Source of the DNA: a virus
Reading direction: 5' to 3' (one strand)
DNA: 64,000 nt
Virus record (IMG/VR): IMGVR_UViG_3300044979_000007
Span: 1 to 64,000 of that record
Shown here: positions 3,897 to 20,548 of the stretch, piece after piece
Layout of the letters: every line of letters begins with the position of its first letter
Numbering within the stretch: position 1 is the first letter of the stretch
Position numbers and translations under genes: made by a program
The notes under the pieces: generated by a model
Databases searched by the model: none
What the model saw: only the letters and a program-made list of their open reading frames with translations
What the model was told of the DNA's origin: nothing

Positions 3897-4751
3897 TTAA
3901 AATAATTGTTGTTGTTCGTATTTTTTTTCGCATCCAATGCACATGAACATTTTCGATTTCTTTTGCTCTTTCTTCCACTCGTTGGGGCCAGAAGCCCAAT
4001 CCCACGGATGTCCGTTCTCTGTAGCGATCCGGTGAAGGTTTTGCAATCTTTTAAACACTTCCGGGTAAGCATGTTTGATCTCCATGTATTCCTCCCGCTT
4101 GGCAAAAGCGCCACATAAACACTCCCCGGATATACAAATCTTTTCTTTGACCGGATTTTTGGGGATGTTATGCTTCTTCATATAATCCTTACAATTCTGC
4201 TCCGACCAATAGAAGATTGGATTAACCCAGCAACGGGAAGCGTCTTTGCTCATCGTTTCTTGGTATCCCATTCGGATCAGGCTTTCATCCTTGCGTACGC
4301 CTGACAGTAATAGAACATTTTCTCTTGCATGGGGAGATGATTTTATTTCATGCGTAACGAAATGTCGTAACGCCCGCTCTTTTAACCTGCGATACATAAA
4401 CTGGTGCGCTGATCTTGTTGGGCCGGGGAATCCATGCTTTGCGACAATATTATCATACCAATCTTCTGGATTAGGAGGCCGACGGACATAAAGGCTCCAT
4501 TCGAATAATTCACAGATATCTGCAACATAATATTGGACTTCTTTAATTCCGATAGTTGTATCTCCGTGATATACCGAATAAATAACCTTCAATTTATCTA
4601 AGATACTGGCACTCACATGCGCATTTGTAACTGAATCATGGCCGCCAGACACCATCAGGAGCACATTGACCGGCTTATATAATTCAATAGCTTTCCGAAT
4701 TATATCTTCCGCTAACTTCATTTTATAGGCTACTGAACTATCTTCTGTCAT
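3897..4751 (-). CDS. PAPS-reductase-like PP-loop ATPase
   Basis: The 284-residue protein has the PP-loop SGGHDS at residues 35-40, the nucleotide-binding signature of PAPS reductases and related adenylating enzymes. A GVRKDES segment at 151-157 resembles the GxRxxES motif of PAPS-reductase/DndC-like proteins. Cys206, Cys211, Cys213, Cys271 and Cys274 could hold an Fe-S cluster or zinc. The family activates sulfate donors or uses sulfur in DNA or RNA modification. No other sulfur-modification gene is nearby, so the substrate is unknown. It starts MTEDSS in the shared AACCGCCATGAC context and lies in the leftward accessory operon. Confidence 0.8.
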   Translation of the reverse strand: MTEDSSVAYKMKLAEDIIRKAIELYKPVNVLLMVSGGHDSVTNAHVSASILDKLKVIYSVYHGDTTIGIKEVQYYVADICELFEWSLYVRRPPNPEDWYDNIVAKHGFPGPTRSAHQFMYRRLKERALRHFVTHEIKSSPHARENVLLLSGVRKDESLIRMGYQETMSKDASRCWVNPIFYWSEQNCKDYMKKHNIPKNPVKEKICISGECLCGAFAKREEYMEIKHAYPEVFKRLQNLHRIATENGHPWDWASGPNEWKKEQKKSKMFMCIGCEKKYEQQQLF

Positions 4752-9590: not shown

Positions 9591-10148
9591 TTATAATTTA
9601 ATTGGTTTAAGTTTCTTCATCCGGCGGACTTCTTTTGAGTAATGGGAGATAAGTTCTTTAATTTCTGACACGGAATAGTTATAAGTTACGCGGGCCTGAT
9701 CTTCTAAGGCTTCAACACTCCCCGGACGGTCTCTCTCCAAATGTTCGCCGTATGCCGTCAAATTACCCTTTTTAGTCTGGTTACAGGTAGTACATCCTCC
9801 ATGACAATTATCTTCACTATATCGTGTATTTTGATGGCCACGCCGCATGAAGTGCATATTATCGCATTCTGTCCAGTAGTTAACAGCACCACAGCAATAG
9901 CATGAGACATAACCGTTTTCGTCTGAATCTCGCAGCCGGATGAACTGGCTAAAAACATCATCTAAATCAGACATTGCAGTGCTAAGGCTTTCGTTTTCGG
10001 CAACTTCCTTTTCTTCAAATTTAGCCGCCGAAGCCAACCTGCGACCCAACCAATAGTGATTTTGACAAAGGCCGGCAGTCAACGCTCCATATACCGAACA
10101 TCCCGGATGCTTGCAATTACCTGTTTTTTGCCTGATTGTGCTATACAT
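9591..10148 (-). CDS. ninG: NinG/Rap-type recombination nuclease
   Basis: The 185-residue protein has the NinG layout: 'FSQFIRLRDSDENGYVSCYC' with a CYCCG knuckle, then MHFMRRGHQNTRYSEDN, CTTCNQTKKGN, and a final 'YGEHLERDRPGSVEALE'. In lambda, NinG (Rap) is a Holliday-junction endonuclease acting in recombination. An extra N-terminal Cys/His cluster (CKHPGC...CQNH) may bind a second zinc. ATG at 10148 was chosen over an upstream GTG because the -7 box at 10154-10161 overlaps that GTG. The mRNA would be almost leaderless. Confidence 0.8.
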   Translation of the reverse strand: MYSTIRQKTGNCKHPGCSVYGALTAGLCQNHYWLGRRLASAAKFEEKEVAENESLSTAMSDLDDVFSQFIRLRDSDENGYVSCYCCGAVNYWTECDNMHFMRRGHQNTRYSEDNCHGGCTTCNQTKKGNLTAYGEHLERDRPGSVEALEDQARVTYNYSVSEIKELISHYSKEVRRMKKLKPIKL

Positions 10149-10153
10149 CAGCA

Positions 10154-10161
10154 CAAACCTA
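10154..10161 (-). promoter_or_regulatory. leftward -7 box (TAGGTTTG) for the accessory operon
   Basis: On the minus strand TAGGTTTG fits TAnnTTTG exactly, with TTTG at 10181-10184 nineteen bases upstream, a good -33 spacing. It drives the leftward operon starting with ninG. The start codon at 10148 is only five bases beyond the box, so translation is probably leaderless. Confidence 0.65.
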
Positions 10162-10217
10162 ATACTATTTTCAACAATTCCAAAAAAATAATTATTGTTA
10201 ATTCAAAAAAGTTTATT

Positions 10218-10225
10218 TAGGTTTG
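10218..10225 (+). promoter_or_regulatory. rightward -7 box (TAGGTTTG) for the replication operon
   Basis: TAGGTTTG is an exact TAnnTTTG match. ATTG at 10194-10197 sits at -33-like spacing. Together with the box at 10154-10161 it makes a 9-base inverted repeat (10154-10162 and 10217-10225), so the divergent promoters mirror each other. Confidence 0.6.
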
Positions 10226-10241
10226 CTGAAACATTTCCAAA

Positions 10242-10433
10242 ATGGCAGAAGTTAAAGAAAACTATCGGGCTAAAATTAAAGCGGCTCTTATTACCCAAAA
10301 GCGACTGGCGAAGATGACTAAAATACATGAGGTCCGTATCTCTTGTGTCTTGAACGGAACATTGGAATTTAGCGATGAGGAGATTGATAAAGTTTATAAG
10401 GCTTTAAAACTTAAAAGAGATGGCAAATCGTAA
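10242..10433 (+). CDS. small HTH DNA-binding protein
   Basis: The 63-residue protein looks like a stripped-down XRE-type helix-turn-helix: 'ALITQKRLAKMTKIHEVRIS' and 'VLNGTLEFSDEEIDKVYKAL'. It is the first gene rightward of the divergent promoter, the classic position of a regulator that binds the mirrored boxes. That it represses one or both promoters is inference. It overlaps the next gene by 14 bases. Confidence 0.7.
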   Translation: MAEVKENYRAKIKAALITQKRLAKMTKIHEVRISCVLNGTLEFSDEEIDKVYKALKLKRDGKS

Positions 10434-10758
10434 AGAGACACGGGAAGTCCATAAGAAGGCGTTTCTAGCTTTACTGCAACGCGGCGAGGTTCTTACTCAA
10501 AAGAAACACGGCACCATATTCAAGTGTATGCGCCTAGCCGCCCGTATGTGGGATTTAAGAAAAGACGGACACCCCATCATAACCACCATGATTTACAACG
10601 AAAAAACTGGCGAAAAGTACGCCGAATACTCTTACGAAGGAGTAACGCCGGAGCCATCCAAAAAACGTGAACGAGTAATGAAGGGAAAGACGGTAGCGGA
10701 TCACGCTCGTGAAATTAAGAAGATTCAAAGTCAAGTAATTCAAACAACACTATTTTAA
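10420..10758 (+). CDS. HTH_39-type helix-turn-helix protein
   Basis: The 112-residue protein matches the phage HTH_39 pattern: 'LLQRGEVLTQKKHGTIFKCM' then 'RLAARMWDLRKDGHPIITTM'. The family is a winged-helix-like domain common in phage early regions, near replication genes, and of unsettled function. The C-terminal half is basic and helical. It overlaps the preceding HTH gene, so the two are coupled. Confidence 0.7.
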   Translation: MANRKETREVHKKAFLALLQRGEVLTQKKHGTIFKCMRLAARMWDLRKDGHPIITTMIYNEKTGEKYAEYSYEGVTPEPSKKRERVMKGKTVADHAREIKKIQSQVIQTTLF

Positions 10759-11671: not shown

Positions 11672-11905
11672 ATGATAGTCAAAGTACAAATAAGCCAATT
11701 CGATAGCGAAGGACGGAAACGGATGTTGATCTACGACCGTACAAGGACGTATATGTGCGAAGATGATGCTAGTCCGGCAGTACTGAAACTTATGGGCGAT
11801 GATCCTAAAAAGTTCTTTCACGCAGAAGCGGCCCCACCGCCAAACAACGACAGGCATTCGGCAAAGTTTGTAATAGGCGAACAAGCTCCTTGGCAAGATT
11901 GGTAA
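11672..11905 (+). CDS. hypothetical protein (77 aa)
   Basis: The protein starts MIVKVQISQFDSEGRKRMLIYDRTRTY, a beta-hairpin-like start, and has a Pro-rich middle. It looks from memory like small proteins found near phage replication genes. It is the last gene before the promoter/terminator-like region at 11992-12090. Confidence 0.55.
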   Translation: MIVKVQISQFDSEGRKRMLIYDRTRTYMCEDDASPAVLKLMGDDPKKFFHAEAAPPPNNDRHSAKFVIGEQAPWQDW

Positions 11906-11991
11906 AAAATAAATTTTTTAATTCGAAAGAACTATTAGTAATTTCATAGTGCTTAGTCCGAATAATCTTATTTAATATGCAGGAAATACAT

Positions 11992-11999
11992 TATTTTTG
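11992..11999 (+). promoter_or_regulatory. candidate -7 box (TATTTTTG)
   Basis: TATTTTTG is an exact TAnnTTTG match. A start of transcription near 12005 is expected. It would begin just before the perfect 5-base hairpin GTCCG/CGGAC (12009-12013 with 12018-12022). No clean TTTG was seen at -33. Confidence 0.45.
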
Positions 12000-12004
12000 T
12001 AATC

Positions 12005-12090
12005 AAGCGTCCGTCTCCGGACAATTTCGCATTTTCATAGGATTATTTTATTAAGCAACTTCCGCCGGGTTCTCTCGGGGGATTTTTTTT
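12005..12090 (+). ncRNA. candidate small RNA or attenuated leader
   Basis: The predicted transcript begins near 12005, opens with the GTCCG-TCTC-CGGAC hairpin and ends in a strong terminator before the gene at 12112. It could be a free small RNA of about 85 bases or a leader that controls the downstream HNH and replication genes by premature termination. No known RNA family was recognised. Confidence 0.35.
12061..12090 (+). terminator. intrinsic terminator/attenuator
   Basis: TCCGCCGGG (12061-12069) pairs with CTCGGGGGA (12074-12082) around TTCT, with one G-G mismatch and one G-U wobble. Eight Ts follow (12083-12090). It ends the early operon or attenuates the next gene, which starts 21 bases later. 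Confidence 0.65.
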
Positions 12091-12111
12091 GTATCCTTTT
12101 AAGAGCTGGTT

Positions 12112-12513
12112 ATGACATGGAATGAACAACTGCTAACCAAAAAATGGCTTACTAAGCGTACCGAAATTCTGATCCGAGACCATTTTAAATGTCAGGTTCC
12201 TGGGTGTGATGTTGAATTCGAGGGCGTTGAGGTTCACCACTTAGATTATCTTGGTAATTTACTGGCGTGGGAGTACCCGAATGATATGCTTAAGACGTTG
12301 TGCCATAAGCATCATTCTAACCATCATCAGGGCATCCAGATGGCCGAAAAGGCGCTAATGTCTTCACTACGGGTAAAAGGGTTTCTCTTGGGCGACGTGA
12401 TGGCTTTATCCTCTTTGGTCGATACAGACATAGAATTTACTCAATCCCTATTAAAAATCCTTTCGGACTTGCAAAATGGCAAAAAGGTTCACAGCTACGG
12501 AAATATGGGGTGA
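12112..12513 (+). CDS. HNH-like endonuclease
   Basis: The 133-residue protein has 'KRTEILIRDHFKCQVPGCDV' (Cys27, Cys32), then VEVHHLDYLG (His42-His43) and 'TLCHKHHSNHH' (Cys64, His67-68). This matches the compact phage HNH fold with two zinc-binding turns. It starts the replication block and overlaps the next gene by 38 bases. A role in DNA nicking is expected, but the target is unknown. Confidence 0.75.
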   Translation: MTWNEQLLTKKWLTKRTEILIRDHFKCQVPGCDVEFEGVEVHHLDYLGNLLAWEYPNDMLKTLCHKHHSNHHQGIQMAEKALMSSLRVKGFLLGDVMALSSLVDTDIEFTQSLLKILSDLQNGKKVHSYGNMG

Positions 12514-13063
12514 GGATTGGTTCCTCGAAATGCCCTCAGAATACAAGTTATTTTGGTACTACATGCTTGCTACCTGCGATCATGGAGGTCTGTTTAAGGT
12601 CAACTTGAGGTCTTTTAGAGGTCTAGTAGGGGTCGACATCACCTCTCATACAGCTCTCGAACACTTCAATAAAGGGAAGGAAAGAATAAGAATTATCAAT
12701 AGTTCTGTTTGGTTGATTGAGGATTTCTTTGTGTATCAATACGGTACGACATTTAATCCGAATAACAAGATGCACGCGAGTATCGAAAAGCTGTATTTAA
12801 AATTTGACCTCAAAATGACTTCTATTAGAGGTCTAACAGACCTCAAGGATAGGGTCAAGGATAAGGAAAAGGAAATAAATACAGAGAGTAGAATACACGA
12901 AGCCACTAATGGCAAAATTCAAAGCGGAATAAAATTCGATGAAAAGGGGGAAACAGTTTTTTTCGACGACGGCACCTATCAGCAATTAGGCTACGAACAA
13001 CGGATCGCCTTCCGCCAAAAAACATTAAACCCAAGAGACGTTAAAAAAGGTCATCCTTATTGA
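12476..13063 (+). CDS. replication initiator-like protein
   Basis: The 195-residue protein starts MAKRFTATEIWGEDWFLEMP, followed by 'YKLFWYYMLATCDHGGLFKV' and a helical N-terminal half. A linker of charged residues (KDRVKDKEKEIN) follows. This resembles phage replication-organiser proteins that precede the helicase gene, though the family name is not certain. It lies directly upstream of the primase-helicase and overlaps the HNH gene. Confidence 0.6.
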   Translation: MAKRFTATEIWGEDWFLEMPSEYKLFWYYMLATCDHGGLFKVNLRSFRGLVGVDITSHTALEHFNKGKERIRIINSSVWLIEDFFVYQYGTTFNPNNKMHASIEKLYLKFDLKMTSIRGLTDLKDRVKDKEKEINTESRIHEATNGKIQSGIKFDEKGETVFFDDGTYQQLGYEQRIAFRQKTLNPRDVKKGHPY

Positions 13064-13069
13064 TTATCT

Positions 13070-14932
13070 ATGTATTACGATAGGCTTTCAGACTTAGGGA
13101 TCAAACTCACCCGGCATTCCGGGAACGAAAAAACGCTATGCCCTCAGTGTAGCGACGGGCGCAAGAACAAGCGAGATAGATGCTTGTCAGTCAACGTCAC
13201 AACCGGGGAATACAACTGCCACAATTGCGGCTGGAAAGGGAATTGTCGGAGTTTTGAGCGCAAGCGGGAAGAAAAAACCTACGAACGACCGGCCCGCGAT
13301 TACATCGAATCCATCCAGCGAAAGGAGAAAACGGAATGGTATTTCGAAAAACGGGGTATCGGGACGGCGACGCTGGAAAAATTTCTGATCTTCAGCCGTG
13401 ACGAATTCATGCCGCAAACCGGCCAAAAGGAGAACTGTATTTGCTTCCCATACTTCCGGGATGGAGAGTTAGTCAACATCAAATTCAGGGACGCCAGGAA
13501 GAATTTTCGCATGGTAGCCGGGGCCGAACTGATTTTTTACAACCTTTCCAGCCTTCGAGAAAAGAAAAAGGCAATCATTACCGAAGGAGAAATTGACTGC
13601 CTGAGTTGCTACGAAGCAGGGATCGGACAGGACACGGAGCCATTTTCGGAGTACGGGATCGTTAGCGTCCCGAATGGAGCCAGCAAAGGAAGTCAGCGGT
13701 TAGACTATCTTGACAACTGCGCGGATTGGTTCATGGGGTTGGAAGAAATCGTTATCGCTACTGATGGCGACGAAGCGGGCCAATCACTGAGGGATGAGCT
13801 AATGCGAAGATTGGGGGTCGAACGATGCCGGTTTGTGACGTATCCGGAAGAAAGTAGGATAGACGCTGGCGGCCAACTAAAACGGCCATGTAAGGACTTG
13901 AATGAGGTTTTGGTTCATTTCGGAAAGGAACGTGTGTTAGATTGCATCCAGAATGCTAAAGCTGTCCCTGTAGACGGGGTTTACTTTGTAGAGGACATAT
14001 TCGGGTCAATGTTCGACAACTTCAAAAAAGGGGTACAGATTGCGCCTGAGACAAGGTTTAGAGATTTGGACAACTACTTCCGATGGAAAAAAGGAGCCAT
14101 CAACGTGTTTACCGGATATGCCAATGCAGGTAAGACTTTTTTCGTCCTGCAACTGATGCTCACAAAAAGCCTGTACGATGATTGGAAGTGGGCGGTATTC
14201 TCCCCTGAAAATTATCCGGCCAATGACTTTTTCGATGATATGGTTGAAATGTTCTGCGGGAAATCGTTAGGCGACATGAAGGATGAGGAATATATTCAAG
14301 CCTGTGAATTTTTGAACGAGCATTTTTTCTACGTGTACCCCGACAACGACCATGACCTGCTTTCGATCCATGACAAGTTCCGATATTTGGTTCTCAAAAA
14401 AGGAGTTGACGGCGTTACCATAGACCCGTACAACCAACTTGACCACAACCAGAAAGCATACCAGCGAGAAGATCAATACCTTTCTGACGTACTCAAAGAC
14501 ATTAAGCGATTTGCGTTGCTTAATAACGTAACTTATAACATCGTAGCTCACCCGAAAAACCCAAAATACGAACAGGACAAATCTCTCCCGGTTGTGGATA
14601 TGTACGATTTGCACGGAGGGTCCATGTGGGGAAATAAAGCGGATCATATACTTTCTTATCACCGACCAAATTGGCATATTGATAAAAATAGCCCTGAGGT
14701 AGAAATCCATATCCAGAAAGTCAAGCGCAAGCGGACAGGCGGAAAGCAGGGTATGGTAGAAATGAAACTCAATTGGCAGCAAAAAAGATATATTGAAACT
14801 TCTGAAACCGAATCATTTTGCGATCCAAAACGGGCCACGAATTTTAAAACGTCAACAGAACCGCCTAAAATTATCGACACCTATAAGCCAGTCAAAAACT
14901 GGTATGAACGCGAAGATATTGATCCATTCTAA
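13070..14932 (+). CDS. bifunctional DNA primase-helicase (T7 gp4-like)
   Basis: The 620-residue protein has an N-terminal zinc finger (Cys24-x2-Cys27 and Cys50-x2-Cys53). A TOPRIM primase core follows (EGE at 172-174, DGD at 232-234), then a RecA-like helicase with Walker A GYANAGKT at 349-356 and Walker B aspartate near 452 (DGVTIDPYNQ). This is the T7 gp4/Twinkle arrangement: it unwinds DNA at the fork and lays primers. It is the central replication enzyme here; no DNA polymerase lies in the window. Confidence 0.9.
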   Translation: MYYDRLSDLGIKLTRHSGNEKTLCPQCSDGRKNKRDRCLSVNVTTGEYNCHNCGWKGNCRSFERKREEKTYERPARDYIESIQRKEKTEWYFEKRGIGTATLEKFLIFSRDEFMPQTGQKENCICFPYFRDGELVNIKFRDARKNFRMVAGAELIFYNLSSLREKKKAIITEGEIDCLSCYEAGIGQDTEPFSEYGIVSVPNGASKGSQRLDYLDNCADWFMGLEEIVIATDGDEAGQSLRDELMRRLGVERCRFVTYPEESRIDAGGQLKRPCKDLNEVLVHFGKERVLDCIQNAKAVPVDGVYFVEDIFGSMFDNFKKGVQIAPETRFRDLDNYFRWKKGAINVFTGYANAGKTFFVLQLMLTKSLYDDWKWAVFSPENYPANDFFDDMVEMFCGKSLGDMKDEEYIQACEFLNEHFFYVYPDNDHDLLSIHDKFRYLVLKKGVDGVTIDPYNQLDHNQKAYQREDQYLSDVLKDIKRFALLNNVTYNIVAHPKNPKYEQDKSLPVVDMYDLHGGSMWGNKADHILSYHRPNWHIDKNSPEVEIHIQKVKRKRTGGKQGMVEMKLNWQQKRYIETSETESFCDPKRATNFKTSTEPPKIIDTYKPVKNWYEREDIDPF

Positions 14933-14952
14933 AACTCTAAAGCGTACGAACC

Positions 14953-15270
14953 ATGGCACTCAACTTTAGACCAAGATACGAGCTACATACCGAATTTGGG
15001 ATTATTGAAGGCTCTTATGAAGATTTAATTTCCTTGAGAGAAAAATCAGCAGGTGCTATTCTATACGAATTGATCCCATCATCCATGAACAAGGTGAGAA
15101 TAAGCCGGGTGTCATATATCACTTTAGGCCAGTACCTGTACATTCATGTCATGCACAAGCGTGGAAAGGTGAGACAGGATTTTGCTAGACAGTTTAATTT
15201 AGGATGGAGTACAATAGTCAGAATACTAAAAGATGAATTTAATATCTTACAGCATGGAAATATTGGATAA
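14953..15270 (+). CDS. hypothetical protein with C-terminal HTH-like end
   Basis: The 105-residue protein starts MALNFRPRYELHTEFGIIEG. Its C-terminal third ('VRQDFARQFNLGWSTIVRIL') reads like a helix-turn-helix. It follows the primase-helicase by 20 bases and overlaps the next gene by 17. A regulatory or replication accessory role is a guess. Confidence 0.5.
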   Translation: MALNFRPRYELHTEFGIIEGSYEDLISLREKSAGAILYELIPSSMNKVRISRVSYITLGQYLYIHVMHKRGKVRQDFARQFNLGWSTIVRILKDEFNILQHGNIG

Positions 15271-15640
15271 AAACACACCGGGATTCACTGTGACGAACAA
15301 GAGAGGGGGCAAAATAATGATTACCTTTTCTGATTCAGGTATATTTATTTCAAGTAGCGCATGCAGGGAATTTGACTTAAACCCACTCGATAAGATACAC
15401 TTCATTCACGATTTGGATAGGCTATACTTTTTTATAAATGAAGAAAAATCGGGTTTCTCTTTGTTCGCATGCGGGGCTGGTAAAAATGGGCTGAGATCAA
15501 AATGTATTACGATGATAAATATTTTGAAAAAAAAAATGCCAACTGTAATATCGCCACCAGTATCCTTCCCGTTAAAGAAATCTGTAACAAAATTAAACGG
15601 TCATAATCTTATCGAAATTCTTATCCATAAAAAACCATAA
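15254..15640 (+). CDS. hypothetical beta-rich protein (128 aa)
   Basis: ATG at 15254 (MEILDKNTPGFTVTNKRGGK) is preferred over an in-frame upstream codon at 15233. The protein has a start-to-middle beta pattern ('KIMITFSDSGIFISSSACRE', 'LDKIHFIHDLDRLYFFINE') and a basic end. The pattern recalls small AbrB-like or barrel folds, but no family was identified. It is the last gene of the replication block. Confidence 0.5.
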   Translation: MEILDKNTPGFTVTNKRGGKIMITFSDSGIFISSSACREFDLNPLDKIHFIHDLDRLYFFINEEKSGFSLFACGAGKNGLRSKCITMINILKKKMPTVISPPVSFPLKKSVTKLNGHNLIEILIHKKP

Positions 15641-15678
15641 CACTCCCACCCCCTTAATAAATACTACAGCAATAATAA

Positions 15679-15693
15679 AAAACGGTAACTTTA
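15679..15693 (+). promoter_or_regulatory. AAAACSGTAMCTTTA motif, copy 2 (candidate promoter)
   Basis: AAAACGGTAACTTTA ends 11 bases before the ATG at 15705. It is one of three near-identical copies in the window (others at 2099-2113 and 17382-17396). It would start a new transcription unit after the replication genes. Confidence 0.5.
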
Positions 15694-15704
15694 ATTTAAA
15701 ATTA

Positions 15705-15950
15705 ATGACACCAAAACCTATTTGCATAATAAAAGTAGATTTTGAAAGGATTAAGCCCGGAGGCCACGATTTGCTTTCTGATCTGACGAATGCTTTTTCA
15801 GAAAAAATGCCAGACTATCATGTTTTTGTTATACCCAACGATGACCGAGAAGAACCGCATGATGTTTTAGAGTTTCAGGTATTTTACGAGAAGGATCAAC
15901 TACCTATCGACTATGAAGGACTTAAAAACATAATCAAACCATCAAACTAA
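15705..15950 (+). CDS. hypothetical protein (81 aa)
   Basis: The protein starts MTPKPICIIKVDFERIKPGG, has a helix (DLLSDLTNAFSEKM) and two strands ('DYHVFVIPNDD', 'VLEFQVFYEK'). This suggests a small alpha/beta fold. It is the first gene after the shared promoter-like 15-mer. Function unknown. Confidence 0.5.
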   Translation: MTPKPICIIKVDFERIKPGGHDLLSDLTNAFSEKMPDYHVFVIPNDDREEPHDVLEFQVFYEKDQLPIDYEGLKNIIKPSN

Positions 15951-15957
15951 ACGGTAT

Positions 15958-16305
15958 ATGACAGTAGAACAATTTTTGGTTTCCGTTGGGAATGCTAAGT
16001 ATAAGCGGGATACCGGGGAAGAAAAGCCAATCGGATATTGGGGGTACTCGCATAACGCTGCTATCGAGGCGATGGAACAATGGGCAAAGATAGAAAGCGA
16101 AAGATTCCTGAAATGGGTAGAGGATGGTCACTTTTGCCCAAATAGCAGCGGCTTTTGGTTTGACTACACTTTGTCCAGAGATGAAGTTCGTTTTTATACC
16201 ATTTCTCAACTTTACGGTTGGTTCCATACCGGAATAAAGTTCACGTTGCCGCCGCTAGAACTTCCTAAATCACTGCAACCTACAACCGAAAACAATAAAC
16301 CATGA
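15958..16305 (+). CDS. hypothetical protein (115 aa)
   Basis: The protein is rich in aromatic residues ('PIGYWGYSHNAAIEAMEQWA', 'SSGFWFDYTLSRDEVRFYTI', 'LYGWFHTGI'). These hints suggest a compact domain, with no family recognised. Its stop overlaps the next start (ATGA at 16302-16305). Confidence 0.5.
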   Translation: MTVEQFLVSVGNAKYKRDTGEEKPIGYWGYSHNAAIEAMEQWAKIESERFLKWVEDGHFCPNSSGFWFDYTLSRDEVRFYTISQLYGWFHTGIKFTLPPLELPKSLQPTTENNKP

Positions 16306-16523
16306 AAGAATACTCTCTAACCCAATCGTATAGAGGAATGCCGGCTAACACTTCTCTCTTTGGTCCATTTCCTGTTCGCGGAGGAACGGCTGGCGTCTAC
16401 GTTCAAAAAGCTGACATCCCAACCGATCCTTCTCAAGGAGTATCTTTTGGAATATATGAATCGGCGATACTATCCAATCCAGACATTTTTAAACCTGCGA
16501 CGAATGGTACGGAAGGAAAATAA
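16302..16523 (+). CDS. hypothetical protein (73 aa)
   Basis: The small protein starts MKEYSLTQSYRGMPANTSLF. A Gly/Pro-rich middle ('GPFPVRGGTAGVYVQKAD') suggests a small beta structure. It overlaps the following gene by about 20 bases. No family recognised. Confidence 0.45.
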   Translation: MKEYSLTQSYRGMPANTSLFGPFPVRGGTAGVYVQKADIPTDPSQGVSFGIYESAILSNPDIFKPATNGTEGK

Positions 16524-16794
16524 ATGCACGAAATCCGAGTGGTTTCCCGAGAACGATCCGCCAACATATAATCCCGGTGCGAGGGCTTTTCAGCGGGCAA
16601 TCATTCAATCCGAGAATGGCCGTATTATTCCCGGATTTGCATTTGGCGAGACAGATGAGGAATGCGCGGCTAACTCATGGATGTTGTCGGCCAGCAAAGA
16701 CCTATTCAAAGCAGTTCAGGCTTTCTTACTCAACGATCCGTCCGCTCCTGAAAAGGCAAACTATGCCTTACGGAAAGCGATGGACGATCTTTAA
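16504..16794 (+). CDS. hypothetical protein (96 aa)
   Basis: ATG at 16504 (MVRKENKCTKSEWFPENDPP) was chosen because a longer frame lies inside the upstream gene. The C-terminal half is a helical bundle ('ANSWMLSASKDLFKAVQAFL', 'EKANYALRKAMDDL'). Function unknown. Confidence 0.5.
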   Translation: MVRKENKCTKSEWFPENDPPTYNPGARAFQRAIIQSENGRIIPGFAFGETDEECAANSWMLSASKDLFKAVQAFLLNDPSAPEKANYALRKAMDDL

Positions 16795-16806
16795 AACTCG
16801 TAACAA

Positions 16807-16950
16807 ATGAAAATAAGGCTTAGAAAAATCGGTGTCGATAATTGGGTAGGAACTATTGGCGTGTATGTACTTTTTTCGTGGGCCAATTGGATGTTCTGGT
16901 GCTTTTTGTATGACGGCGCTAAACTTATTTGGCACTGGATATTTTCATAA
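16807..16950 (+). CDS. small membrane peptide (47 aa)
   Basis: Read by hand: ATG at 16807 and TAA at 16948-16950. After a basic N-terminus (MKIRLRKIGVDNW) comes a hydrophobic, Trp-rich stretch ('VLFSWANWMFWCFLYDGAKL') long enough for a membrane span. It closes the rightward unit that began at 15705. Function unknown. Confidence 0.5.
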   Translation: MKIRLRKIGVDNWVGTIGVYVLFSWANWMFWCFLYDGAKLIWHWIFS

Positions 16951-16976
16951 AAAATCCCCCCGTAGAAACAGGAGGA
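16951..16976 (-). terminator. weak intrinsic terminator for the minus strand
   Basis: TCCCCC (16955-16960) pairs with GGAGGA (16971-16976) with one mismatch and a 10-base loop. The A run on the left becomes a T run on the minus strand. It lies between the converging genes ending at 16950 (+) and 17008 (-). Confidence 0.45.
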
Positions 16977-17007
16977 CATTTACTAATCAATAAGAATCAA
17001 AAAAATG

Positions 17008-17307
17008 TTACGTACGAAGCGCGTTAAGAGCGGCAACGGTGGAATCGCAAATGTACCGTTTAGACTTAGCCGGGATTTGGAGACCCATCGGGAATACTTC
17101 CACTAAGGAATTGGCGTAAACGGTGCCCCATTTCGTTTGAAAAATTTGGTAAGGTATCGTTGACACCCTGGTTGATTGCACGGGGAGAGATTGATAATCA
17201 GGGCCAGAGTAACCATTCCCGTAGAGGAAGACGCCCCCGTTGACGTTGTCCACATACGCCACATCTCCATAAAGTGTGCATGCGAACGCATTTTGACCTG
17301 TAGCCAT
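17008..17307 (-). CDS. hypothetical beta-rich protein (99 aa)
   Basis: The protein is Gly/Tyr/Thr-rich and probably all beta ('DNVNGGVFLYGNGYSGPDYQ', 'IPYQIFQTKWGTVYANSLVE'). It is a lone leftward gene between two rightward units, like the Ig-like gene at 2400, and could be a late virion-decorating protein (inference). No family recognised. Confidence 0.5.
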   Translation of the reverse strand: MATGQNAFACTLYGDVAYVDNVNGGVFLYGNGYSGPDYQSLPVQSTRVSTIPYQIFQTKWGTVYANSLVEVFPMGLQIPAKSKRYICDSTVAALNALRT

Positions 17308-17381
17308 AAAAATTAAGTTTTAAAGTATAGCAAAATATATTTCGACCTATTAAAAATAAATGAGTTTTGTCGGTTTGGCCC

Positions 17382-17396
17382 AAAACGGTACCTTTA
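17382..17396 (+). promoter_or_regulatory. AAAACSGTAMCTTTA motif, copy 3, with overlapping palindrome
   Basis: AAAACGGTACCTTTA ends 20 bases before the ATG at 17417. It overlaps an inverted repeat ACCTT-T-AAGGT (17390-17400), a possible operator for the ribbon-helix-helix protein it precedes. Confidence 0.5.
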
Positions 17397-17416
17397 AGGT
17401 GGCAACTATCTTAACG

Positions 17417-17548
17417 ATGGTAAAATTTACTGTAAGATTTAAGGAGGCTATGTACGAAAAGATAAAGTCGTACTCCAAGCACGAAGGCATCACCTTTATG
17501 GCCGCACTTCGGCAAATCATTAATCAATTTTTCAAGGAAAGGAAATGA
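17417..17548 (+). CDS. small ribbon-helix-helix protein (43 aa)
   Basis: ATG at 17417 gives MVKFTVRFKEAMYEKIKSYS, then 'KHEGITFMAALRQIINQFFK'. A short strand followed by two helices is the ribbon-helix-helix (Arc/CopG-like) fold. An upstream ATG at 17360 would precede the promoter motif and is less likely. It probably regulates this unit by binding the palindrome at 17390-17400 (inference). Its stop overlaps the glycosyltransferase start. Confidence 0.65.
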   Translation: MVKFTVRFKEAMYEKIKSYSKHEGITFMAALRQIINQFFKERK

Positions 17549-19035
17549 AAGAACTGCCAAAAGTAACCCTTATAGTTTGCGATACCGTATCTCCTGGCCG
17601 TGCTTTAGCTTCATTGAGACGTAGTTTAACCCAGATCAAGCCTGCCAAAACAATTCTCTTTACCAGTGTAGGATTGGCTGTAAAAGACGATATAGAGGTG
17701 GTTAGAATAGCCAATTTGAAATCTAAGGCCGATTATAGCCGGTGGATCATGCGGGAGCTTTACAAGTACGTTGAGACAGACTTTGTGCTTGTGTCTCAAT
17801 GGGACGGCTATGTTTTAGATTCTGAATGCTGGACAGACGAATTTCTATCGGTAGACTATTTGGGCGCAAGTTGGCTAGAAACAGATGGATTTTCGGTTGG
17901 GAACGGCGGATTTTCAATCCGGTCCCGTAGGCTCATGGAGGCTGTCGCCACCGATCCCATGATTGTATCCACGCACCCGGAAGATAATCAAATTTGCAAG
18001 ATATATCGCCCTTATCTTGAAGCCAAGCACGGATTCAAGTGGGCATCTCATGAATTAGCCGATAAGTTTTCGTTTGAATTGCGAGAACCAACGCAACCGA
18101 CATTCGGGTTTCACTCGTTTTTCCACACCCCATTCAAAAAAACGGTAATTATAAATCGAAAGGCATCTCTCGGGGATGTGGTAATGACCGAACCAGTTCT
18201 CAGGTACTTTCACGAAAAAGGCTACCGGGTTGTACTGAAAACGTTGCCCCAGTTCTACAATCTTTTCTATAGCCACGAATTTAAGGTTCATCATCCAGAC
18301 GAAGTTGATCCGAAAATACTCGCTAACGCAACAGAAATAGACTTGGACATGAGTTATGAGAGTACGCCAGAGCAACTTCACTTATTGAGTTACTACCAAA
18401 TGGCGGGAATTGAAGATGGAGAAATAAGAAACCCACAATTATTCACTGGATATGACTACAGGAATCATGACTTCAAGTTGTTTCGGAAATATTGTGTCCT
18501 TCATATCGACGAAAGACCGCAAGAAGGCAGGAATATTTACGGGGTTGATTGGGACGAAACGATTTCTTACCTTTCTGCAAAAGGATATACTGTTGTTCAG
18601 ATAGGCCAAGGGAAACATATTGTTCCGAAAGGGGCCGTAGAAATGCGAAACATGAATGAGCCAATGTTAATGCGGTTAATCGGGGGTGCTGATCTGATGA
18701 TAGCAATTGATTCCGGGCCATCAAATATCGCATTAGCTATGGGCACGCCGCTCATTGTATTTTTTGGGAACGTCCACCCAGATTATATTATTCCCAATAG
18801 GGAGAATGTAACAGTTATCCAAAACCACAATCCAGAAAAGCCTATCTGCCGATTACCTCACTGTTGGTCAAGCACTATTTCGACTGAAGGAGTTGAGTGC
18901 ATTGAAACAATGGGGCAGATAAAACGCGTGGTAAAGATGTTTCAAGGAGCAGAATGCGTGGAGGATGCGGTTATCCCTCCTTGCGTTCGCTTCACTACTC
19001 AACAGGTTATTAACGCTATAAATCAAAGATTATGA
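17545..19035 (+). CDS. two-domain glycosyltransferase (DUF5672 + GT9-like)
   Basis: Residues about 1-180 match DUF5672, a glycosyltransferase-like domain: 'DFVLVSQWDGYVLDSECWTD', then VGNGGFSIRSRRLM. Residues about 200-480 resemble family 9 (heptosyltransferase-type): 'NRKASLGDVVMTEPVL' and 'AIDSGPSNIALAMGTPLIVF'. The fusion suggests two sugar transfers by one protein. It begins a glyco/methyl cluster (17545-22165). Likely targets are a host surface glycan, a virion protein or DNA; none can be chosen from sequence. Confidence 0.8.
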   Translation: MKELPKVTLIVCDTVSPGRALASLRRSLTQIKPAKTILFTSVGLAVKDDIEVVRIANLKSKADYSRWIMRELYKYVETDFVLVSQWDGYVLDSECWTDEFLSVDYLGASWLETDGFSVGNGGFSIRSRRLMEAVATDPMIVSTHPEDNQICKIYRPYLEAKHGFKWASHELADKFSFELREPTQPTFGFHSFFHTPFKKTVIINRKASLGDVVMTEPVLRYFHEKGYRVVLKTLPQFYNLFYSHEFKVHHPDEVDPKILANATEIDLDMSYESTPEQLHLLSYYQMAGIEDGEIRNPQLFTGYDYRNHDFKLFRKYCVLHIDERPQEGRNIYGVDWDETISYLSAKGYTVVQIGQGKHIVPKGAVEMRNMNEPMLMRLIGGADLMIAIDSGPSNIALAMGTPLIVFFGNVHPDYIIPNRENVTVIQNHNPEKPICRLPHCWSSTISTEGVECIETMGQIKRVVKMFQGAECVEDAVIPPCVRFTTQQVINAINQRL

Positions 19036-19355
19036 ATTGGGGCAACCCATTCAAAAAGAAAAAGGCTCACCGGATACGTGGTTACAATCCTACGAAGAAA
19101 GAATTGCAAGAGGAATTCGATAGGCTGCTAAAGCATCGGGTTGCCACTCGTTTCAAGGCTGAATTAGGGGAAGGTAAAAGCCCAATGGAATTTATGGATT
19201 TTAGAGAAAAGAACGGCGACCGGATACGAGATGAAGAAAACGCCAAGTTGATTGCCGAACTGAAAGAAAAAGGATATTCACACGTAACCGAATTAACCAG
19301 ACAACCGGGACAAGATGTTCTATTCAAAAAGATCATTGGAGGTAAGCATGAATAG
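19032..19355 (+). CDS. hypothetical charged protein (107 aa)
   Basis: The protein starts MNWGNPFKKKKAHRIRGYNP and is highly charged and helical ('KKELQEEFDRLLKHRVATRF'). It sits between the glycosyltransferase and the first methyltransferase with ATGA-type overlap at its start, so it may be an adaptor for them. No family recognised. Confidence 0.5.
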   Translation: MNWGNPFKKKKAHRIRGYNPTKKELQEEFDRLLKHRVATRFKAELGEGKSPMEFMDFREKNGDRIRDEENAKLIAELKEKGYSHVTELTRQPGQDVLFKKIIGGKHE

Positions 19356-19935
19356 TATAACACTTGAAGGATTGGTAGGGAGTGGCGAGTTATGGCTTGA
19401 TATAATGCGAATCATTTGCGGCGATACAGGAGGCAAATCAATGCTAGACGCCTGTTGCCATAAAGCACCGTATACTTCTAAATTGGGATTTAGCGAACGG
19501 ACATACGTGGATATTCAGGACCGCCCTTTGGACGATCCGAACGAACAGAAATATTTTATCAAGGCTGACATAGTAGAGTACTTAGTGAAAACAGAACATG
19601 TTTTTGACGTAGCAATCTGCTCTGACGCCGTGGAGCATTTTAGTTTTTCAGATGGTTATAACCTGATATGGCTAATGTCATTCAAGTCTTATAAGACAAT
19701 TTTCTTTACTCCATTAGGCGCGTGCATGATTCAAAATAAAGAAACAAACGATCCTGATGCGCACCGTACTGGATGGATTCCAGAAATGTTTGAAGGATAT
19801 CTTTCAATAGTGTTGCCAAACTTTCATCCAACCATAAAGAGCGGCGCATTCTTTTCTGTACTATGCAATCCAATCGAAACAACAAGAATATATAACGAAA
19901 TAAAATCTAAGTATGTCGAAAATAGAATTGATTAA
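19348..19935 (+). CDS. class I SAM-dependent methyltransferase-like protein
   Basis: ATG at 19348 was chosen because the longer frame runs into the preceding gene. The 195-residue protein has a Rossmann-like order: 'SMLDACCHKAPYTSKLGFSE' (degenerate SAM loop), an acidic 'YVDIQDRPL', 'FDVAICSDAVEHFSFSDG' (typical motif IV region) and 'IFFTPLGA'. Methylation of the glycan made by the neighbours is plausible. Substrate unknown. Confidence 0.7.
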   Translation: MNSITLEGLVGSGELWLDIMRIICGDTGGKSMLDACCHKAPYTSKLGFSERTYVDIQDRPLDDPNEQKYFIKADIVEYLVKTEHVFDVAICSDAVEHFSFSDGYNLIWLMSFKSYKTIFFTPLGACMIQNKETNDPDAHRTGWIPEMFEGYLSIVLPNFHPTIKSGAFFSVLCNPIETTRIYNEIKSKYVENRID

Positions 19936-20548
19936 ACAAGCTATTGAGAAAGCTATTCGGAGAGAATCCAAAATAACTCCCTTGGCGCTTGCTATTCCAT
20001 TTCTAGGGTGTTTAAATACGCGCCACTTGCTTAATAATCTTGGTTCAATATCAACCAGATACGCCGAAATCGGCAGTCACCGTGGCGGAAGTCTATGCTC
20101 CGCCGTATTCAAAAACGATAATCTCATATCGGCCACGGCAATAGACAACTTTCTTTCAGATGAAACCAATAATGAGGGTGCAAAGCCGGATTTTCTTGGA
20201 AATGTCGAAATATGCCTACCAAAAGAGGTTAAATTCAATTTAATTCATAAAGATAGCTTTCAGGTTGATTTGTCAGAGGTGCCAACTGGAATAGATTTGT
20301 ATCTCATGGATGGCAGTCATGACGAAGAATCCCAATGCCGAGCGTTAACTTACTATTTACCCGTAATGGCTGATGAATTCATATTTCTTGTTGACGATAG
20401 TGACTGGCCAGACGTAATAGAAGGGACAAAGCGCGGTTTGCGAGAAACTGGAGCAGAAGTCATTTTTGAGCGAAAATTTCAGGGGAATGACCATGATAAC
20501 GACGGGTGGTATAATGGGTATTGGATTTTCCTTTTGAGAAAAAAATAG
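19913..20548 (+). CDS. class I SAM methyltransferase (Methyltransf_24-like)
   Basis: The 211-residue protein has 'YAEIGSHRGGSLCSAVFKND' as SAM loop, 'ATAIDNFLSDE' as the acidic residue region, and 'GIDLYLMDGSHDEESQCRAL' then 'EFIFLVDDSDWPDVIEGT'. This is typical of Methyltransf_24 proteins found in sugar-modification clusters. It overlaps the first methyltransferase by about 23 bases. A homing endonuclease gene follows. Confidence 0.75.
   Translation: MSKIELIKQAIEKAIRRESKITPLALAIPFLGCLNTRHLLNNLGSISTRYAEIGSHRGGSLCSAVFKNDNLISATAIDNFLSDETNNEGAKPDFLGNVEICLPKEVKFNLIHKDSFQVDLSEVPTGIDLYLMDGSHDEESQCRALTYYLPVMADEFIFLVDDSDWPDVIEGTKRGLRETGAEVIFERKFQGNDHDNDGWYNGYWIFLLRKK

Follow-up and report, generated by a model that had tools for sequence, protein, structure and literature searches.

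A candidate terminator-gated leader ahead of the replication genes of a phage

The question raised by this locus is what a promoter-like box, a short hairpin and a strong terminator are doing in a non-coding gap directly before the replication genes of a phage. An earlier note had proposed that they form a complete small transcript, either a small RNA or an attenuator controlling replication gene expression. The box, the perfect 5-base hairpin and the eight-T terminator before the gene at 12112 are all where they had been placed, and the analysis below concerns what they may do together. The window, that is the whole stretch of DNA analysed, covers 64,000 nt of a 70,898-base virus record; among its other genes is a phosphoadenosine phosphosulfate reductase-like gene on the minus strand (3897-4751), an auxiliary metabolic gene.

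The coordinates of the locus are collected in Table 1. On the + strand 5′ of the gap lie the genes for a small repressor-like protein, an HTH_39 protein, a YopX-like protein and p77, the first two being putative DNA-binding proteins, while NinG and other genes run in the opposite direction. Divergent promoters are predicted between NinG and the small repressor-like gene (10155-10241), where TAGGTTTG boxes occur on either strand. From 10242 to the helicase, all the genes are on the + strand. The start codon of the HNH gene, which opens the replication cluster, is backed by alignment with relatives.

Table 1. Positions of the features of the locus within the window.
Feature	Position	Strand	Description
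-7 box TAGGTTTG, probable early promoter of the upstream + strand genes	10218..10225	+	ATTG at -33, 20-nt spacer
p77 gene	11672-11905	+	ends just before the gap
Non-coding gap, 206 nt	11906..12111	+	from the end of p77 to the HNH start
-33-like element TTTA, weak	11971..11974	+	17-nt spacer to the -7 box; chance-level
-7 box TATTTTTG	11992..11999	+	sequence match, consensus TAnnTTTG; predicted start ~12004
5-bp hairpin GUCCG-UCUC-CGGAC, 5′ end of the predicted RNA	12009..12022	+	borderline against chance
Intrinsic terminator	12061..12090	+	hairpin 12061-12082 plus T8 12083-12090
HNH endonuclease gene, opening the replication cluster	12112..12513	+	phrog_119, E 3.3e-11
p195, function unassigned, beside the primase/helicase	12476..13063	+	32% identity to the L029 neighbour
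DNA primase/helicase gene	13070..14932	+	phrog_239, E 5.9e-84; DnaB_C and Toprim

Among box, hairpin and terminator, the terminator alone is clearly beyond chance. Its hairpin consists of 3+5 bp around a G.G mismatch with a folding energy of -13.5 kcal/mol, dinucleotide shuffling of the 206-nt gap gave its equal 6 times in 3000, and it is the only intergenic + strand terminator past -11 kcal/mol within the 64-kb window. An inverted repeat relating 12047-12091 to 16946-16990 was also considered and amounts merely to a likeness between two terminators. The terminator lies 155 nt past the previous stop codon, where most of the other terminators of the window and of related genomes follow a stop by 18-39 nt, and is thus unlike the upstream gene's own end. 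The HNH start codon follows after only 22 nt, which leaves no room for a promoter behind the terminator, and an exact + strand TANNTTTG was not found anywhere from 12000 to 20291. Since the genes from 10242 to the helicase share one strand, the terminator stands in the way of any transcript started upstream. Being too far from the upstream gene and too near the HNH gene for a promoter in between, it would gate the replication genes.

The flavobacterial -7 box has the consensus TAnnTTTG and is located at -12 to -5 relative to the start (PMC9723704). TATTTTTG at 11992-11999 is a full match to this Bacteroidota -7 box. A scan with the sigma-70 consensus was uninformative for the window. The pattern TANNTTTG at 11992 is the sole exact + strand match between 10226 and 20291; over the whole window it is no commoner than expected (59 observed against 59.6), and it turns up in 12% of the gap shuffles (p ~0.12). 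When the box is scored together with its TTTA element, the combined score is equalled by 48 of 500 shuffles. The promoter is a partial match only, and the box alone is not beyond chance. If it is active, transcription would start at about 12004 and end in an RNA of about 85 nt.

This RNA would carry the small hairpin near its 5′ end. The stem arms (12009-12013 and 12018-12022) form a perfect 5-bp helix of -7.2 kcal/mol, and hairpins of this class occur in 1.1% of shuffles of 12005-12060, in 3.5% of shuffles of 12005-12030 and in 2.2% of the 56-nt stretches of the window. The fold of the 90-nt unit as a whole gains modestly over shuffled sequences (z -1.65).

Taken together, these features lead us to read the stretch as a terminator-gated leader ahead of the phage replication genes, a reading to which we assign an even chance of being right. 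Polymerases starting from about 12004, or arriving from the early promoter at about 10218, would reach the terminator, where the majority would stop and release the RNA of about 85 nt. HNH, p195 and the primase/helicase would then be transcribed only by polymerases that read through, whether by leak or after modification of the elongating polymerase by a protein or another factor, and any regulation of read-through would require such a factor to act on the polymerase. The 5′ hairpin could be the recognition element for it, by analogy with lambda boxB. Promoter activity, read-through and its possible regulation are what we infer here from the arrangement of the locus. The gated leader is a plausible but fairly ordinary phage control element.

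The second proposal of the earlier note, an attenuator, fared worse in its classical form. The locus does resemble attenuator leaders in having a terminator inside the leader and close to the first gene. Unlike them, it offers neither an ATG nor a GTG start codon within 12000-12090, and a leader-peptide attenuator is not supported. A riboswitch or other RNA-only attenuator is likewise unsupported, as no fold excluding the terminator is better than chance: with the terminator blocked, the best competing fold reaches -11.2 kcal/mol against a null mean of -14.1, and an equal or better value is reached by 429 of 500 sequences whose upstream part was randomised. Searches of Rfam 15, with the window at the gathering score and the gap at a relaxed E-value, returned no family, the best weak match being JA04, which scored 23 bits where the cut-off is 81. 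Given that a leader peptide, a competing fold and an Rfam match are all lacking and that the relatives found are too distant for covariation analysis, a self-contained attenuator is unsupported. Scanning about 30 genes with PHROGs/Pfam revealed no candidate antiterminator; antitermination factors are poorly conserved. A literature search found no paper matching a terminator-leader element of this kind.

Support for the layout also comes from relatives in IMG/VR, whose primase/helicases are 58-70% identical to that of the window; L082 is more distant and was reached through its HNH protein (about 50%). In L006, L089 and L082 the terminator follows the upstream stop codon by 160, 180 and 171 nt, respectively. 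The first replication gene, which is the nearest downstream gene call with an ATG, begins 36, 50 and 15 nt after the terminator, so the arrangement of the window recurs in three related records. L006 and L089 share a promoter of the form TTTGG-N19/20-GTATCTTAGTC, a good -33/-7 promoter inside the gap itself, followed by leaders of 158 and 164 nt. Between these two sequences the terminator stem is kept while two of its pairs are altered on both sides, which weakly points to selection on the terminator. The earlier idea of a promoter-leader-terminator unit before the replication genes is supported by the terminator, by its geometry and by the recurrence of that geometry, the promoter being a partial match only.

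The arrangement is not universal among the relatives. A simple terminator at the site of the replication leader is absent from L007, L091 and L002-L005, which are of similar relatedness. Moreover, blastn of the gap against the relatives gave weak AT-rich matches only, with no homology to their leaders; no exact copy of an 18-mer of the hairpin was found in IMG/VR, no relatives of p77 were found, and a DNA search of phage records gave no match. Two scans of bacterial genomes returned no Bacteroidota prophage relative and one contig of an archaeal MAG at 37%.

The recurrence bears directly on the first alternative, namely that this is an ordinary terminator ending the early operon that starts at about 10218, with the replication genes served by a constant partial leak, no start at 11992 and no regulation. 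Phages often put terminators between gene blocks, the genes from 10242 to the gap are all + strand genes downstream of a good early promoter, and the promoter at 11992 is weak, all of which fit. The 155 nt between stop codon and terminator do not, given that most other terminators follow far more closely and that the long distance returns in three relatives; nor do the good promoters that L006 and L089 have within the gap. We consider this explanation unlikely, though it deserves to be kept in mind.

In the second alternative, the transcript of about 85 nt is an independent small RNA with targets in trans among phage or host mRNAs, and the replication genes are reached by unrelated read-through. 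From sequence, a small RNA and a gated leader are indistinguishable, and the complete anatomy of candidate promoter, hairpin and terminator favours this reading. A comparable geometry is found behind a non-coding RNA gene: among the terminators far from a stop codon and close ahead of a gene is one behind the permuted tmRNA gene of the relative G001, whose terminator leaves just 31 nt to the gene that follows. Such a layout therefore also fits non-coding RNA genes, and a gene close behind a terminator is no proof of gating. Trans-acting RNAs usually recur in relatives, and close relatives of this phage were not found. Against a stand-alone RNA stand the lack of any Rfam family, the lack of sequence conservation and the modest z of the fold, and we regard it as distinctly improbable. 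A pure chance origin, in which a -7 box and a hairpin, either of which chance could explain singly, arose fortuitously in an AT-rich gap with an unimportant terminator, is very improbable in view of the few shuffles that match the terminator and its placement as in three relatives.

Other non-coding elements were noticed in the relatives. A permuted tmRNA (Rfam RF04321, 56 bits) was found at 10407-10629 of L254 (IMGVR_UViG_3300010397_000044), a close relative by primase/helicase; ARAGORN calls a tmRNA at 9916-10463, in partial overlap with this match, so that the limits of the gene are tentative. In both L163 and L170 a leader hairpin sits roughly 130 nt ahead of the HNH start (3501). Judged by eye, part of this hairpin is complementary both to the bases immediately preceding the HNH start codon and to a copy of them lying farther 5′ (GTAGGATT/AATCCTAC in L163, GTAGCTT/AAGCTAC in L170), with the pairing kept despite the difference in sequence. 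About 1 kb of the minus strand of L261 (4344-5384) contains several strong terminators, some of them separated by hardly any or no coding sequence, and may be a cluster of small RNA genes. A long hairpin leader, TGGCTYGTCCYGTARCG...CGTTATRGGCRRGCCA, precedes the replication genes at 3294-3366 of L002, 3320-3390 of L003 and 3299-3371 of L004; across these three sequences compensatory changes occur at 4 of 23 pairs, and a covariance model of the L002-L005 hairpin, run on the window and the other loci, recovered its own group only (83 sources).

The L002-L005 leader, with a promoter TTTGG...TATATTCG, resembles the gated leader of the window in being non-coding, structured and located before the same p195/primase-helicase position. 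It differs in being a 66-nt long hairpin with no terminator and no sequence relation to the window. One could go further and suppose that this Bacteroidota-type phage group shares a processive antitermination switch, or another RNA-based one, for the replication operon, in which sequence-unrelated leaders at the same place, of the terminator type (window, L006, L089, L082) or of the long-hairpin type (L002-L005), are gates for a putative phage factor. We regard this extension as quite doubtful. We know of no described phage antitermination system for Bacteroidota. If the gate works, it would mean termination control of replication timing in phages of this host group, a possibility that can readily be tested because location and spacing recur; if the terminator is merely leaky, the element is ordinary.

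Among known systems, two of phage lambda come closest to the gated leader proposed here. In the late leader of lambda, promoter pR′ and terminator tR′ delimit the 6S RNA (194 nt), and the antiterminator Q allows passage. The present locus is alike in having a (predicted) promoter, a short leader, an intrinsic terminator before a gene block and no promoter between terminator and genes. It is unlike it in that replication genes rather than late genes would be gated, the predicted RNA is 85 nt as against 194 nt, neither a Q-like protein nor a Q-binding site was identified and the promoter is of the Bacteroidota type. The second is lambda tR1 and nut with N, where a terminator likewise sits between the early promoter and the replication genes and the short upstream hairpin has its counterpart as a candidate boxB-like site; here, however, no N-like protein or boxA was recognised, and the hairpin has a loop of 4 nt and no evidence of conservation. 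By analogy, the element would work most like lambda pR′/tR′ or tR1, as a putative member of the antitermination systems.
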